From IMG/VR virus record IMGVR_UViG_3300020204_000441, positions 1 to 21,581 of that record: a stretch of DNA of 21,581 nt; one strand, 5' to 3'. The translations under genes were made by a program, and so were the position numbers. Shown here piece after piece: positions 13,053-21,581 of the stretch (position 1 is the stretch's first letter; every line of letters begins with the position of its first letter). The stretch is from a virus. The notes beneath the pieces are model-generated. The model did no database searches. It had not been told where the DNA came from and saw only the letters and a program-made list of their open reading frames with translations.

Positions 13053-14138
13053 TTATACAACTTCAAATAAAAGTCTTTCATCTATAATTGTTGATGTTTC
13101 ATTTTCAACTATTTTCAATTTGATTCTATATGTTCTATCAATTGCAAACGTATTCAAATCTAAATTAAAATAATTTGATGTAGTATCACAACTTACTTTT
13201 GTATAATCACTAAATGGAATTAAAACTTCGTTTGTTCTATAATCTTCTAACTGATAATATGTAGTAGCTGGTAGATATTTTGATTGGTCATATTCAAAAA
13301 TTGTTCCAAAAGATTTATTTGGATATAAATCTCTACCTTTAACTCTTATTTTAATTTTTGTATTTTCTAAATATTCTTTTTTAAGAGTTGTTAAAACTAT
13401 TTTATAATCCCCATCTGAAGCTGAACCTGTTACTGGTAATAAACTTCCTGTATTGAAAATAAAATCTTTCCAAAGCAATTCTAATGTTGGTTCATATATT
13501 GTATTTGTTTCTTTTGAAAAAAACTTTAACATTCCATAATCTGTATCGTTTTCTTCATTTGTTAAGCTGTGTCTAACAATAAATCCATTATTTTCTATTG
13601 ACCCACTTAACCACAATTTAACAATGTTCGTAACATCCATTCTAATATCATCGGGTTCATATGAAAATGATTGTGAAGCCTGTGATGCTGTATACCAAGT
13701 TCCCCCTTCAGCATTTGCTGATCCTGTTGTACCTAATGTAAATACTGCAGTTCCTGCAATTGTATTTTTTTGCCAACTATTTATTCCATCTCTATATTTC
13801 CAACTAACTCCATCCGATGATATATTATCAAATTTTGTACCAGTTCCCATAGACCAACTTTGAGAAACTGCGTTTGCATAGATTGTATATTCTAGTGGGA
13901 TTTCTTCGGCATTTGCTGATTTAAAGTTTAAATAAGCAATAAAACTACTAGATATTGAACCATTTGCTATAGACTCTGATATTGTATTAATATCAAATTT
14001 TATAAAAGTCCTATGAATATCTTTGATATTATCATAGTAAGTTTTTCCTACTTCCAATATCTCATCACGGCCTGAATTTTGTTCAGGTTGTTGAAGATAT
14101 ACACTTGCGTCATATATTGAATTGTAAAATTTATGCAT
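13053..14138 (-). CDS. Structural protein with DNRLRE/CBM96-like beta-sandwich (361 aa)
   Basis: The first 230 residues resemble the DNRLRE (carbohydrate-binding, TGF-propeptide-like) domain seen in bacterial surface proteins. Visible marks are DASVY near the start, FIKFDINTISESI around residue 44 (compare the family's LLRFDLSSIP), a strand run ISSSFIAYLNFKSA, the SQSWS motif near 95, a later DIRMDVTNIVKLWLSGSI followed by NNGFIVR around 163-190, and FFSKETNTIYEPTLELLW at the domain end. The remaining 130 residues look like a second beta domain. The ATG overlaps the gp6 stop codon as TAATG, which suggests translational coupling to gp6. In a baseplate this domain could bind a cell-surface glycan or simply serve as a rigid structural module. 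The domain call is by pattern and moderate in confidence. Confidence 0.78.
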   Translation of the reverse strand: MHKFYNSIYDASVYLQQPEQNSGRDEILEVGKTYYDNIKDIHRTFIKFDINTISESIANGSISSSFIAYLNFKSANAEEIPLEYTIYANAVSQSWSMGTGTKFDNISSDGVSWKYRDGINSWQKNTIAGTAVFTLGTTGSANAEGGTWYTASQASQSFSYEPDDIRMDVTNIVKLWLSGSIENNGFIVRHSLTNEENDTDYGMLKFFSKETNTIYEPTLELLWKDFIFNTGSLLPVTGSASDGDYKIVLTTLKKEYLENTKIKIRVKGRDLYPNKSFGTIFEYDQSKYLPATTYYQLEDYRTNEVLIPFSDYTKVSCDTTSNYFNLDLNTFAIDRTYRIKLKIVENETSTIIDERLLFEVV

Positions 14139-16150
14139 TATAATGCCCTCCCTTTAATGTCTTTATTTGGATATTTAACTTCAAATACGCAAGGGTCCAT
14201 AGATGGAAAAATAATTTTTCCTCTTGTTGCTTGCTCTATATTATATTTGTTTGGTGAATAAGTACCATCGGAACCACATAAATTATATATTTTAACAGAT
14301 GATACACTCATAACACCCTCAACATTTGCAATAACTAATTCCAATTCAGAAATATTAATAGTTTTATTAAATGTCCAATTATCTGTATTAAAATATTCTT
14401 GCAATTCTGTTATACAATTTGTAACAACTTCTCTTTTATTATAATCACTATAACAAACTATTTCAAAATCAACTCCAATGTTTACTATAAATCCATCTAA
14501 AATGTTTACACCATCTGTTATCATCCTATATTGACTTACATACGTTTTAAGATTTTCTTTTGCTGCTAAATTTAAATTTGTTAAGTTTTTATTAGAGTCA
14601 TATCCTAAAACATACATATTAATTGCAAATGGATTATTTTGTTGTGATATTCCATGCTTTCTTTGATTTATATAACTTATAATTCCTTTTTGTATTTCTT
14701 GTCTATTTTTATTCTGCAACTCTTCAACTAATCCAATAAATTCAGAAACGTTTTTTGGATTAGAAAGAATTGTATTTGGTGAATTTACATCAACTTCACT
14801 ATCGGGAGAAACATAAACTTTAGCAACACTACCATATCTAGCGGGCATTGATAATGCTCTAACTATATAATCTTCTCTAGTCACTGCACGATTTTGTGAA
14901 CCAAACATTGCCAATGCATTTTGTCTAATTTCTTCAATAGATTCACCACCTCTACCACCAGTTGCTGACTCTAAATTATCAACTGCTAAAGATTCCTTAC
15001 CGGCCTGATATGTTGATAATAAACTGGTATTTATTGATAAAATATCTTCATCAAATTCTATTTTATTTATAATATTTAACTGATTAGAATTAATATTTGC
15101 TTCAACACCACCACCAATCAAATATTTTATAGTTAATGTTTTACCTGCGGGCGCTATACCAAATGTATTTGTTTTTAAAAAATTAGATGGGTCTATTCCC
15201 ATATTCAATCTACTAATTGAATTTGCGGTTCCAATTCCTATATTTTTTGTATTTGGTAAAATTTGTTCATCTGCCAAATTAACATCTCCGCTACCAAATT
15301 GTAAATCAATGGTATTATCATTATTTATTTTTACAGAAAACCTTCTAGGAACTTTTTGTATTTCTAACAAATAAGGGACGGTTGAACTATTCTGATGTAA
15401 ATTTCCGTTATATGCTGTATTTTCTTGTTCTACAAATATACTTTCTTGTGCTAAATAAGGAACCTCATAATATTTGTTATTATCCGAATCCGTTACTGAT
15501 GTTATTGATATTATATTATTATCTGATAATGTAATACTTGGATAATCTCTTTCGTTTAAAGGAACGCTTGTTGTTATTGTTTTTTGAATGGCTGATATTG
15601 CTTTTACTTTTTTTGTTACTAAATAAAAAGTAGGTAAACCACTATTATCTCTTTCAAAAACATCATATTCTCTATCAGTTTCTTGAGAAAAATCAACCAC
15701 ATCTGTTGTTCTAAAAATAATTCCTGTATTTGTTGATACTTCTAAACCTTCTTTTATTCTTAAAAATAATCTCTCATCTGGTTCATAATTTGGTGCACCA
15801 GCTGCAGGAACAAGTTGATAAATTGTTAATGTGGTTACGGCAGGTGTAGTTACTTTTGGTTTATATCCCATTGATTGTGCAAGAGACATTATGTTTTTTC
15901 TTTCGGTGGCGTGTAAAAGTAATGATTCTTTTAATTGAGCGTCTTGATAAAATGAAAGAACATCTCCTATATATGATGCCATTTCAACAAAAACCATACC
16001 GGGAGAGGATTCATTAAAATCAGAATATGTATTTGGAAAATAAGTTTTTGTAAAATCAATAAGATTTTCTTTTAAAGAAGCAAAATCTTTACCAACATAA
16101 TTTATGTCTTTTTTATTACCCCAATTTTTATCATTAGATTTAATAGCCAT
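14138..16150 (-). CDS. 6: Baseplate wedge subunit gp6 (T4-like, baseplate J family)
   Basis: The 670-residue length is close to T4 gp6 (660). The N-terminal block contains INYVGKDFASLKENLIDF and then, around residues 46-98, NESSPGMVFVEMASYIGDVL, FYQDAQLKESLLLHATER and QSMGYKPK, a pattern typical of gp6 and baseplate J proteins. Residues 390-447 hold GGRGGESIEEIRQNALAMFG and RAVTREDYIVRAL, the other conserved baseplate-J block. In T4, gp6 dimers tie neighbouring wedges into the inner ring around the hub and drive sheath contraction. The gene starts seven bases after gp25 ends, and its stop overlaps the next start as TAATG. The gp25-gp6 order matches their physical contact in the wedge. There is no sign of truncation. 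Confidence 0.95.
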   Translation of the reverse strand: MAIKSNDKNWGNKKDINYVGKDFASLKENLIDFTKTYFPNTYSDFNESSPGMVFVEMASYIGDVLSFYQDAQLKESLLLHATERKNIMSLAQSMGYKPKVTTPAVTTLTIYQLVPAAGAPNYEPDERLFLRIKEGLEVSTNTGIIFRTTDVVDFSQETDREYDVFERDNSGLPTFYLVTKKVKAISAIQKTITTSVPLNERDYPSITLSDNNIISITSVTDSDNNKYYEVPYLAQESIFVEQENTAYNGNLHQNSSTVPYLLEIQKVPRRFSVKINNDNTIDLQFGSGDVNLADEQILPNTKNIGIGTANSISRLNMGIDPSNFLKTNTFGIAPAGKTLTIKYLIGGGVEANINSNQLNIINKIEFDEDILSINTSLLSTYQAGKESLAVDNLESATGGRGGESIEEIRQNALAMFGSQNRAVTREDYIVRALSMPARYGSVAKVYVSPDSEVDVNSPNTILSNPKNVSEFIGLVEELQNKNRQEIQKGIISYINQRKHGISQQNNPFAINMYVLGYDSNKNLTNLNLAAKENLKTYVSQYRMITDGVNILDGFIVNIGVDFEIVCYSDYNKREVVTNCITELQEYFNTDNWTFNKTINISELELVIANVEGVMSVSSVKIYNLCGSDGTYSPNKYNIEQATRGKIIFPSMDPCVFEVKYPNKDIKGRAL

Positions 16151-16157
16151 TTTTTAT

Positions 16158-16595
16158 TTATTGTTTTATATTTAAACTAATTGAATCTCTTAAATTTGGG
16201 TTTGACCTCAATGAAAATTTCATATCTAAAGTTATTGTATTTTTATCAATAGATATATTATCATAATCAAATATTATTTCATCTATATTAATATATGGCA
16301 ACCATTTTGAAACAGCATCATTTATAACAAACTCAATTTTACTATCTATTTCTGTATCAACAATTTGTTCAAATATTAATTTCCAAATATCACAACCAAA
16401 CTCAGGTTGCATCACTCTTTCACCCTTTCTTGTCATTATTAAATTTATAAGATTATTTTTTGCTTGAGAAAGTGTAGTGTAGTTTACAGAAAATATGCCA
16501 CCTACATTAGAAACAGTATTAATACCAATTCCTAATATTTTATGATTATTTTCTTTTAAATCAGCTACATTTACTTTACCTATCTCAATTGGCAT
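16158..16595 (-). CDS. 25: Baseplate wedge subunit gp25 (GPW/gp25 family)
   Basis: The protein (145 residues; T4 gp25 has 132) shows the family core: a helix with QAKNNLINLIMTRKGERVMQ at about residues 44-63, followed by PEFGCDIWKLIFEQ, corresponding to the conserved R-x-M-x-P-x-F-G segment. A C-terminal beta hairpin (IIFDYDNISID, TITLDMKFSL) follows. In T4, gp25 joins gp6 and gp53 at the wedge core and contacts the first sheath ring, acting as a trigger for contraction. It is not an active lysozyme despite older naming. The gene begins one base after the 167-residue gene ends and is followed at seven bases by gp6. The short N-terminal extension is the only departure from the usual size. Confidence 0.94.
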   Translation of the reverse strand: MPIEIGKVNVADLKENNHKILGIGINTVSNVGGIFSVNYTTLSQAKNNLINLIMTRKGERVMQPEFGCDIWKLIFEQIVDTEIDSKIEFVINDAVSKWLPYINIDEIIFDYDNISIDKNTITLDMKFSLRSNPNLRDSISLNIKQ

Positions 16596-18296: not shown

Positions 18297-19576
18297 TAAG
18301 TTTTACTTAAATAATTTTTAGCAGATAAAATAACTTTTAATTTAGATTTTATTCCATCAAATTCGGCTTTATTTTCTGGTGAAAACTTTGTAGGGCCCGA
18401 TGGTGTTAAATAAAATTGTGCATTTATAGCATCAATTAGTTCTTCTAATATTTTGACTAATTCACCACCTAATACCATTTGTTGTACCGCAGCTCCGGCA
18501 TCACCTGCTCCTGAATTTTTTCCTAAATATATTGTACCATTATCCGAATTGAGGAATATCTGATTAGCCCCTTCGGAATGTAATGTTATATTTTGTTTAT
18601 TATGTATATAAACTTCATTTTCAGCATCAATTGAATAATTACCATCGGTAATAACGCCTGTGTTGCCTTTTCCAAATATAATAAATTCATTGGCTTTTGC
18701 AGATAAAATAATTCTATCGGAATTCATCCATAATTGTTCTCCTTTTAAATTATCCGATGTAGGATATTCTTTAAATCCAATTTTCGTTTTTTGTATTGTT
18801 TCTTTAAATGGAACTTTAACTTTGCCTGATGTTAGATAAATTGATGTTCCATCTTTATTAATATCTTCTTCAATTAAAGTACCAATTTTCTTATCATCTA
18901 ATTCAGGATTCTGTTTGTTGCGTATGAATATAGATGGCGATGAAGTTTTATTATCCTCAGTTAAGAAAAATTCAGAAAAACGAATCGTATTTCCAACTCT
19001 ACCTTGAATTATTGTATCACCTTCTTTTGGTTTAAGAAACTTTATTTTTTCATTAATTTCGTATTTACTTTTAGAAGCACTTTTTGTATTTGATTTATTT
19101 GGTATTCCTGTTTGTGAAACTTGATTATAATTTTTCGATGAACCACCTTTGCCATCTTCACTTAAAGTTTTTTCCGATGTTGATTTTGTAGTTTTAAAAT
19201 CTTCTCTAAAATTTGAATATTGTGTAATTGTATATGGTAAATAAAAATGTTCTGCTTCATTAATTACTAATATAATTACAGTCTCACCACTAATAGGAAA
19301 AGTAAAATTGTTCTTATCAAAGGGGTAGGCATAAGATATTTTTTTTATTGTATCTTCTGAAAAATAAGTTATAGCACCGTAAAATCTTACGTCCTTTTCT
19401 GCAAAGTTTTTATTTCCGTTATAAATTAAAACAGTATCTTCATCTTTTAATAGTTTATTAAAATCCTCTTCTGTTTTATAAACTTTATCTACTTTCGCTA
19501 AAAATGATGTTACATTTTTATTTATATCTTTTTTAGTTTCATCGATATAATTCTTAATTGCTTCGGGTCCTGCCAT
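18296..19576 (-). CDS. 5: Baseplate hub/spike protein, gp5-like, without lysozyme domain
   Basis: The 426-residue product resembles the gp5-type central spike of T4-like environmental phages. Residues about 34-125 look like the OB-fold (SYAYPFDKNNFTFPISGETV, then HFYLPYTITQYSNF). A polar linker with many Ser, Lys and Asn fills 130-175. Residues 180-255 hold DTIIQGRVGNTIRFSEFF, IFIRNKQN and EDINKDGTSIYLTSG, typical of this group. Residues about 285-355 show short alternating strands (IILSAKANEFIIFG, EVYIHNKQNITLHSEG, FLNSDNGTIYLGK) as in the triple-stranded beta-helix. The C-terminus (MVLGGELVKILEELIDAI, LTPSGP, KLKVILSAKNYLS) is a helical cap. T4 gp5 carries a lysozyme domain between OB-fold and helix; none is visible here. 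Overlaps at both ends (TAATG) join it to its neighbours. It should pierce the outer membrane or cell surface as the tail contracts. Confidence 0.88.
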   Translation of the reverse strand: MAGPEAIKNYIDETKKDINKNVTSFLAKVDKVYKTEEDFNKLLKDEDTVLIYNGNKNFAEKDVRFYGAITYFSEDTIKKISYAYPFDKNNFTFPISGETVIILVINEAEHFYLPYTITQYSNFREDFKTTKSTSEKTLSEDGKGGSSKNYNQVSQTGIPNKSNTKSASKSKYEINEKIKFLKPKEGDTIIQGRVGNTIRFSEFFLTEDNKTSSPSIFIRNKQNPELDDKKIGTLIEEDINKDGTSIYLTSGKVKVPFKETIQKTKIGFKEYPTSDNLKGEQLWMNSDRIILSAKANEFIIFGKGNTGVITDGNYSIDAENEVYIHNKQNITLHSEGANQIFLNSDNGTIYLGKNSGAGDAGAAVQQMVLGGELVKILEELIDAINAQFYLTPSGPTKFSPENKAEFDGIKSKLKVILSAKNYLSKT

Positions 19577-19983
19577 TACTTAATTTTTTTACTAATTTCT
19601 TCAATTTCTATCTCAATATCAGCAATCCTTTCTTTATTTTTTGCATCCACTTCATCAACTGCTTCTTCTAATTGATAAAACAGTTGTGCTTTTTCATGCT
19701 CACTTAACCAACCCTCTTCACCAATACCTTTTGCTTCGGCTGCAGCTAATCTTTGAGCAATAGTTGCCATTTTAATTAGGTGTTCATCATTTTTTACCGA
19801 TACCTCAATAAGGTCTTTAATGATAGGGGCAATAACAGTTGCTTCACCAACATTTTTAATTAATTTCCTTAATGATTCAATCAAATCAGAAATGTTTTTC
19901 TTTTTATTTTGTTGGTTTTCGTATATATCTCTAAATAATGATGATAGGTTTTTACCATCAAATAATTGAAATTCTGAACTCAT
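19576..19983 (-). CDS. Small helical hub-associated protein (135 aa)
   Basis: The protein is almost wholly helical and acidic: residues 10-45 (LFRDIYENQQNKKKNISDLI, then ESLRKLIKNV), a middle helix with APIIKDLIEVSVKNDEHLIK and MATIAQRLAAAEAKG, and a C-terminal helix (EEAVDEVDAKNKERIADIEI) with coiled-coil spacing. There is no signal peptide. Similar short proteins sit before the gp5-like gene in T4-like environmental phages, as far as I can recall, with no known role. Its stop overlaps the hub gene start as TAATG, so its synthesis is probably tied to that of the hub. It may be an assembly chaperone or a minor hub part. The gap of 25 bases before it holds an AT-rich stretch described as a candidate promoter. 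Confidence 0.8.
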   Translation of the reverse strand: MSSEFQLFDGKNLSSLFRDIYENQQNKKKNISDLIESLRKLIKNVGEATVIAPIIKDLIEVSVKNDEHLIKMATIAQRLAAAEAKGIGEEGWLSEHEKAQLFYQLEEAVDEVDAKNKERIADIEIEIEEISKKIK

Positions 19984-20008: not shown

Positions 20009-21581
20009 TTATTTATAAATTATAAAGTTGTTAATAACCAGTATATCCATATCACAATTTAAAAATGTCCAAATCGCTTTTTGAGGGTCATTTGTCATTG
20101 TGTGGTCTTTAAGATTAAACGATGTATTTAATAGAATTGGTGTTCCTGTAAGTTTTTCAAATTCTTTTAACAACTTATAATAAAGTGGATTTTGTTCTTT
20201 TGTTACCGTTTGTATTCTTGCACTATTATCCACATGTGTTACAGATGGTATAGGTATTTGTGAAACTACTTGAACAACTTGATTCATATAGGGAACATCT
20301 CCTTCTGAACGGAAATACTTTGTATAATCTTCTTGCGTTACCGATGGTGCAAATGGTCGAAACATTTCTCTTTTTTTAACAACTTTATTTATTTTATCTC
20401 TAATATTAGGTAAGTGTGGATTTGCTAATATTGAACGATTGCCCAATGCTCTTGCACCAAATTCTGTTCTACCTTGAAACCACCCAACTATTTTACCTCT
20501 TTTAATAAACTTTGCAATTATTTGACACAAATCTTTCTCATGTGCAATTTCAACACAAAGTTTATTTGATTGATTTAGTATATGACTAAGTGATATATTC
20601 CAATCCGGCCCCAAATATGGTGATTGATTATCTCCACCCTTTATTTTTGGATTACCTAATGTTTGATGCCAATGCCACAGGCAAGCACCAATAGCCGAAC
20701 CAGCATCCGATGGTGCGAATGGAATCCATACATTTTGGAAAGTTGTATGATATTTTATTTTACCGTTTGCAGTTCCATTATATGCACATCCACCACCCAA
20801 TACTAAATTATCACTACTCCAATTATTATTTGCTCTATTTAAAATAAAATAAAAAGTATTTTCATACCAACTTTGTAAAGCCGCAGCTAAATCTTTATGT
20901 TGTTGTTCTATTTTTTCTTCTTTAAAACGAGGTGGAAAACCAATTAAATCAATCAATTTAGAATTAAACATATCCGTTTCAGATGTTCTATATGTAAAAT
21001 ATTTTTGATTTATATTAACTAATTCACCTAATCGATCCCAATACGAAATTTTATCAAATACATATTCATATTTTGTTTTATCTCCATATGGTGCCAATCC
21101 CATAACTTTATATTCTCCCTCATTTGGTTTGAATCCCAAATAGGAAGTCAATGCAGAATAAACCAATCCTAATGAATTTGGAAACTTTAATGATTTTATC
21201 TCCTTAAATTCATTGTCTCTTATATAACATACTAATAGGGTTTCATCTTCACCGACCGCATCTACTGATACCCCTATTGCTTTATCAAATGGCGATGTAT
21301 AATAAGAAAAAGCTAAATGAGAAAGATGATGTTTTGTATAAAAAATTTCACCACTATATCCAATACTTTCTAATAATCCTTTTAAATTTCCTTCGGTTTC
21401 ATTCCATCTCCTTTCAAATGCTCTCCATTGTGGAAACCATCTTCTTAATGGATACCACTTTGAACCAATTTGATTTTCAACTCTTTTAAATTTGAGGTCA
21501 GGTCTTTCATACCAACAAACCATATCAACTTCATCGATAGTAATTTGTGCATATTCTAAAACCCATTGTATTGCCTTAAAC
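20009..21581 (-). CDS. NodU/TobZ-family carbamoyltransferase, 5' end beyond window
   Basis: The reading frame is open to the right edge: 19 further codons precede the Met at 21523, reading FKAIQWVLEYAQITIDEVD, which matches the family's N-terminal helix and strand. That Met is therefore internal and the gene is partial. About 523 residues are visible. The N-terminal Kae1-like domain has the metal-binding KHHLSHLAFSYYTSPFDKAI followed by VSVDAVGEDET, then KVMGLAPYG and LGGGCAYNGTANGKI. The C-terminal YrdC-like domain shows GRTEFGARALGNRSILANP, EMFRPFAPSV, HVDNSARIQTV and NTSFNLKDHTM. These enzymes make carbamoyl-adenylate from carbamoyl phosphate and ATP and pass the carbamoyl group to a hydroxyl of a small molecule. 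All landmark motifs are intact. In a phage the acceptor could be a hydroxymethylated base in its DNA or a surface sugar; the sequence does not tell which. It lies just upstream of the baseplate genes. Confidence 0.95.
   Translation of the reverse strand, partial: FKAIQWVLEYAQITIDEVDMVCWYERPDLKFKRVENQIGSKWYPLRRWFPQWRAFERRWNETEGNLKGLLESIGYSGEIFYTKHHLSHLAFSYYTSPFDKAIGVSVDAVGEDETLLVCYIRDNEFKEIKSLKFPNSLGLVYSALTSYLGFKPNEGEYKVMGLAPYGDKTKYEYVFDKISYWDRLGELVNINQKYFTYRTSETDMFNSKLIDLIGFPPRFKEEKIEQQHKDLAAALQSWYENTFYFILNRANNNWSSDNLVLGGGCAYNGTANGKIKYHTTFQNVWIPFAPSDAGSAIGACLWHWHQTLGNPKIKGGDNQSPYLGPDWNISLSHILNQSNKLCVEIAHEKDLCQIIAKFIKRGKIVGWFQGRTEFGARALGNRSILANPHLPNIRDKINKVVKKREMFRPFAPSVTQEDYTKYFRSEGDVPYMNQVVQVVSQIPIPSVTHVDNSARIQTVTKEQNPLYYKLLKEFEKLTGTPILLNTSFNLKDHTMTNDPQKAIWTFLNCDMDILVINNFIIYK
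20010..20017 (-). promoter_or_regulatory. Possible T4-late-type promoter box TATAAATA
   Basis: On the gene strand TATAAATA, identical to the T4 late core, lies 26 bases upstream of the ATG of the 135-residue gene and overlaps the stop codon of the carbamoyltransferase gene. It could start the baseplate transcript. The surrounding ATTTATAAAT is self-complementary and very AT-rich, so chance occurrence is quite possible. Confidence 0.28.

Follow-up and report, generated by a model that had tools for sequence, protein, structure and literature searches.

The window analysed here is a virus record fragment of 21,581 bases from a large aquatic phage. It ends in an open reading frame that is free of stop codons up to the contig end and encodes 523 visible amino acids, and that runs on the minus strand into a set of baseplate genes. 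The features that matter for this locus are the following:

14138–16150, minus strand: baseplate J / gp6-like wedge protein (PF04865, 2e-4; phrog_219, 7.9e-26)
16158–16595, minus strand: gp25-like baseplate wedge protein (PF04965, 5.8e-12; phrog_261)
19576–19983, minus strand: conserved 135-aa protein of unknown function, the first gene after the carbamoyltransferase and the downstream border of the cassette described below
20009–21580, minus strand: gene for the O-carbamoyltransferase, truncated on its 5′ side where the contig stops (523 aa visible out of about 565); phrog_1601, Foldseek match to GdmN
20114–20128, minus strand: NTSFN motif (residues 485–489), in which S487 corresponds to TobZ S530
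20432–20458, minus strand: GARALGNRS motif (residues 375–383), in which G380 and R382 correspond to TobZ G421 and R423 (C/G and T in the 5-hydroxymethylcytosine, or 5hmC, carbamoyltransferase clade)
20480–20482, minus strand: W367, equivalent to TobZ W408 (I/V/L in the 5hmC carbamoyltransferase clade)
20774–20800, minus strand: LGGGCAYNG motif (residues 261–269)
21317–21331, minus strand: HHLSH motif (residues 84–88), in which H84 and H88 align with TobZ H114 and H118

The visible protein contains the Pfam domains Carbam_trans_N (3e-42) and Carbam_trans_C (2e-64), with bit scores well above the cut-offs (PF02543, 145.6 vs. 24; PF16861, 216.4 vs. 27), and matches PHROG 1601, "Nol-like carbamoyltransferase" (9e-110). 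Foldseek comparison of an AlphaFold2 model (pLDDT 83.8) retrieved GdmN (3.2e-39), NovN (7e-39) and VtdB (TM 0.86), as well as TobZ, and a PDB sequence search with a full-length relative as query gave NovN (6e-86) and GdmN (1e-80). The window protein thus shares with NodU, TobZ, GdmN, NovN and VtdB (PF02543 plus PF16861) the two-domain fold, the metal-site His/His/Asp and the carbamoyl-adenylate residues, but differs from these NodU/TobZ-type enzymes in being phage-borne and beside a baseplate operon. The one NodU sequence aligned has F at position 408, unlike the W of the window protein.

TobZ residue numbers were verified by a count against the aligned PDB chain (offset 6), in which W408 is the W of GWxxGR, and G421 and R423 are the G and the R of ALGxR. 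In the alignment, TobZ H114, H118 and D338, which we take to be the metal ligands, correspond to H84, H88 and D292 of the window protein, and K443, M473 and S530, which are mutated in PDB entries, correspond to K402, M432 and S487; residues of both the carbamoyl-adenylate site and the metal site are therefore retained. The first-pass annotation held that all major motifs were kept. This is correct for HHLSH, LGGGCAYNG, GARALGNRS and NTSFN, whereas the N-terminal His motif GLSGFYHDSAAA (TobZ H14) falls among the approximately 42 residues missing from the window because the contig ends there. The His of GLSGFYHDSAAA was found in all 24 lineage proteins long enough to reach the N-terminus, and full-length relatives among the loci listed have 564–569 aa.

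Between the window gene and its relative in locus L002, dN/dS is 0.11, with 56, 30 and 171 differences at the first, second and third codon positions; values of about 0.1 against the nearest relatives indicate purifying selection, and the catalytic residues are invariant across the lineage sequences. The window gene is thus under selection and encodes an O-carbamoyltransferase of the NodU/TobZ family; it extends this known family by a new member from a phage, of ordinary chemistry. The enzyme is most likely active, in agreement with its earlier description as an active enzyme and no relic. That the gene is merely a passenger, functionless and kept by chance, could be suggested by the 14 sites, out of 98 that are otherwise conserved, at which it is missing, but is highly improbable given this selection and the invariance of the catalytic residues.

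The proximity to baseplate genes noticed in the first-pass annotation is real for the gp25 and gp6/J-type wedge genes, although the immediate neighbor is the 135-aa protein. Among related phages, which reach 245 kb, the gene order is peptide deformylase, small membrane protein, a conserved 230-aa gene, enzyme, 135-aa gene and baseplate genes. The enzyme is present at 84 of 98 non-redundant sites; at the other 14 (L141, L142, L290, L360 and ten others) the same flanks are separated by approximately 45 bp, or by approximately 235 bp with a short ORF. These results indicate that the enzyme is an optional cassette adjoining the structural operon. In 29 of the 84 occupied cases the next conserved gene lies approximately 750 bases farther away, and the loci of this kind that were read contain an SGNH/GDSL hydrolase gene there; L052 retains what appears to be the 3′ end of such a gene, left as a scar.

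Other genes were observed around these loci. UvdE (UV-damage endonuclease), peptide deformylase and Hsp20 lie upstream of the enzyme in L002 (6820–7707, 8279–8914 and 5000–5395, respectively) and recur in related loci, and a variable upstream stretch (L064, 538–4220; L002, 1013–4221) carries 2OG-Fe(II) oxygenase, SGNH, sulfotransferase-like and radical SAM genes. At the other end of the window, a DNA polymerase fragment (2–628, phrog_405) and an endonuclease (632–1048, phrog_945) both follow the tail genes. The sequence ATATTTAT directly precedes the window ORF starts at 1265, 2467, 4432, 5348, 10625 and 17100, and the 45 nt ahead of ORF starts in the related record G009 are enriched for it about tenfold (23 occurrences vs. 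2.1 expected); it is possibly a phage late promoter. No photosystem genes (PF00124) were found in 17 records.

A carbamoyltransferase acting on 5hmC has been shown experimentally (eLife 2021, PMC8670742); this is the virome study to which the first-pass annotation referred in proposing that the phage may carry hypermodified DNA. In that work, positions W408, G421 and R423 (TobZ numbers) scored highest in the differential comparison of modified with unmodified contigs, and the thymidylate synthase homologs of modified contigs had mostly Asp177. The window enzyme belongs to the same Pfam family and shares the reaction type, but its identity to the 5hmC clade (the characterized enzyme, those of phages Xp15, HHU4 and BF503P4, and one IMG/VR contig) is only about 21%. 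All five members of that clade have I/V/L, C or G, and T at positions 408, 421 and 423, with M in place of R449, whereas W/G/R occurs in 26 of 26 sequences of the window lineage (the window and 25 relatives), all of which also keep R449. Even GARALGNRS, a motif cited in the first-pass annotation, reads GPRALCNTT in the DNA-acting enzyme. R412 and R449 (lineage numbering) are both kept in the window protein, as in NovN, GdmN, VtdB and TobZ, and the W, G, R and R are likewise found in NovN, GdmN and VtdB, and in the segment seen of TobZ. W408 alone is not diagnostic, however, since it is absent from the T4-like phage homologs P-SSM2 nol, S-CAM8 and Bellamy, which keep G421 and R423.

Overall identity follows the same direction, with the window lineage showing 34% to NovN, 33% to GdmN and a median of 38% to bacterial relatives, vs. 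a median of 21% to the 5hmC clade. In the tree, the 5hmC group forms a single clade with full support and a long branch. Nesting of the window lineage inside it was rejected (AU, 5e-30 and 1e-5), which counts against the DNA reading, whereas a position of both as neighbors, on long branches, was not (AU p 0.53), so that the tree alone leaves the deeper order unsettled.

The search for a hydroxymethylase suggested in the first-pass annotation was run in 20 related records, 19 of them with the enzyme, which are relatives and not the window's own genome and for which there is no completeness estimate; no Asp177-type dCMP hydroxymethylase was found among the 19. A PF00303 gene occurs only in G014, and its sequence (PPCHYGF, FNIASY) makes it an Asn177 dUMP thymidylate synthase; ThyX is present in G001, G009 and G015. 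When run against 307 loci, among them the 238 kb of G009, a hydroxymethylase profile built from three 5hmC-clade enzymes with Asp at 177 by inspection recovered nothing beyond its three source sequences. The PF00303 search is not blind to divergent enzymes, since it recognized those of the 5hmC clade at 3.5e-16 to 5e-6. Additionally, there was no C5 DNA methylase in the 20 records and no TET/JBP match, in a search without positive control. Conversely, the three 5hmC-clade phages examined (Xp15, HHU4 and BF503P4; loci L176, L190 and L191) each encode a 5hmC-type carbamoyltransferase and, no more than a few genes away, an Asp177-type hydroxymethylase; from this combination we predict that their DNA carries 5-carbamoyloxymethylcytosine.

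It is therefore very unlikely that the window enzyme carbamoylates 5hmC in phage DNA or dNTPs, shielding the genome from restriction. Membership of the family of the 5hmC enzyme and the tolerated neighboring position in the tree would allow it; against it stand the diagnostic residues (W/G/R vs. I/C/T), the search of the 19 records that found no Asp177-type hydroxymethylase, the lack of a C5 DNA methylase or TET/JBP match under the scope given above, the ThyX genes and the location of the gene among structural, not replication, genes. The refutation test set in the first-pass annotation itself, applied to related records and to the phylogeny, goes against hypermodified DNA; the alternative offered in the first-pass annotation, a host or virion sugar, is better supported.

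Bacterial genomes scanned with phage-lineage rows alone yielded no match, and relatives were found once bacterial rows were added. These bacterial proteins are 34–41% identical over their full length. SxtJ-like and DUF5989 genes occur in the vicinity of most of the near ones, joined in some cases by SGNH genes, and small-molecule and polysaccharide genes also lie beside bacterial relatives; these neighborhoods recall the sxtI-sxtL gene set (PMC2684587), with an order like sxtI-sxtJ-sxtK-sxtL. An SGNH/GDSL neighbor gene is common to part of this bacterial group and part of the phage group, but a Pfam scan of ten L002 neighbors identified neither SxtJ nor DUF5989. Among phages, the window protein shares phrog_1601 ("Nol-like carbamoyltransferases") and the T4-like phage type with homologs from cyanophages and pelagiphages (29–33% identity). 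Several of the homologs examined are surrounded by sugar genes (those of Bellamy and HTVC008M and the second copy of P-SSM2), and at position 408 most carry a residue other than W, whereas the window lineage forms its own clade.

Sugar genes are also found in the relatives of the window phage. In the first set, nine records with the enzyme measure 80 kb or more, and every one of them contains three or four sugar epimerase genes. G009 carries genes for an RmlC-type epimerase/isomerase, a C-methyltransferase, a GHMP kinase, a sugar nucleotidyltransferase and glycosyltransferases, and is the only record with PF08484; some of its sugar genes form a cluster of approximately 21 kb, past a long gene of 1,693 aa and tens of kb away from the enzyme. 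In the window, no acceptor-making enzyme adjoins the carbamoyltransferase. A tight link between enzyme and epimerases was suggested by G017, which lacks the enzyme, the epimerases and the sugar cluster and in which the flanks of the cluster align. This link was weakened by G027 (24.9 kb), which has an epimerase gene without the enzyme, and by G022 (116 kb, not among the empty sites), which has no epimerase gene; the association is thus loose.

Taken together, we favor, with a probability of roughly 0.6, a sugar-type O-carbamoyltransferase that acts on a sugar hydroxyl of a virion or host glycan and not on 5hmC in DNA. This reading derives from the W/G/R signature together with R412 and R449, as in NovN, GdmN, VtdB and TobZ; from the higher identity to NovN, GdmN and bacterial relatives than to the 5hmC clade; from the rejected nesting in that clade and the search of 19 records that found no hydroxymethylase-type gene; and from the epimerases of related records, the T4-like homologs in sugar clusters and the SxtJ, DUF5989 and SGNH genes near bacterial relatives. 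A sugar or small-molecule acceptor is the best-supported reading, and both the sugar nature of the acceptor and its placement on virion or host are inferred from these comparisons. By homology, the two-domain NodU/TobZ/GdmN-type enzyme would form carbamoyl adenylate from carbamoyl phosphate and ATP and then pass the carbamoyl group to a hydroxyl, most likely that of a sugar, on a glycan or a nucleotide sugar. The acceptor sugar would perhaps be made partly by the phage's own sugar genes, and the carbamoylated product may decorate the virion (tail or fibers) or the surface of the infected cell. As a tentative extension, the phage might make its own sugar and carbamoylate tail or fiber glycans for host binding or to evade host defenses.

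A somewhat doubtful variant is that during infection the enzyme modifies a host molecule, for instance a polysaccharide of the cell surface or some small metabolite, altering the host surface or blocking further adsorption, with a product that never enters the virion. The small-molecule and polysaccharide genes next to bacterial relatives, the SGNH/GDSL hydrolase in the longer gaps and the optional nature of the cassette are consistent with it; the SxtJ and DUF5989 partners, however, were not identified among the Pfam-scanned phage neighbors, and the gene leads into the baseplate operon across intergenic gaps that are short, suggesting late expression and a virion target.

With a sugar hydroxyl as the favored acceptor, the presence of a carbamoyltransferase in a phage is no ground for inferring carbamoylated DNA. 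A few residues, together with whether or not an Asp177 hydroxymethylase is present, split the DNA-acting clade from the sugar-type clade, and Xp15 and the Bacteroides fragilis phages are isolates in which DNA modification can be tested directly.
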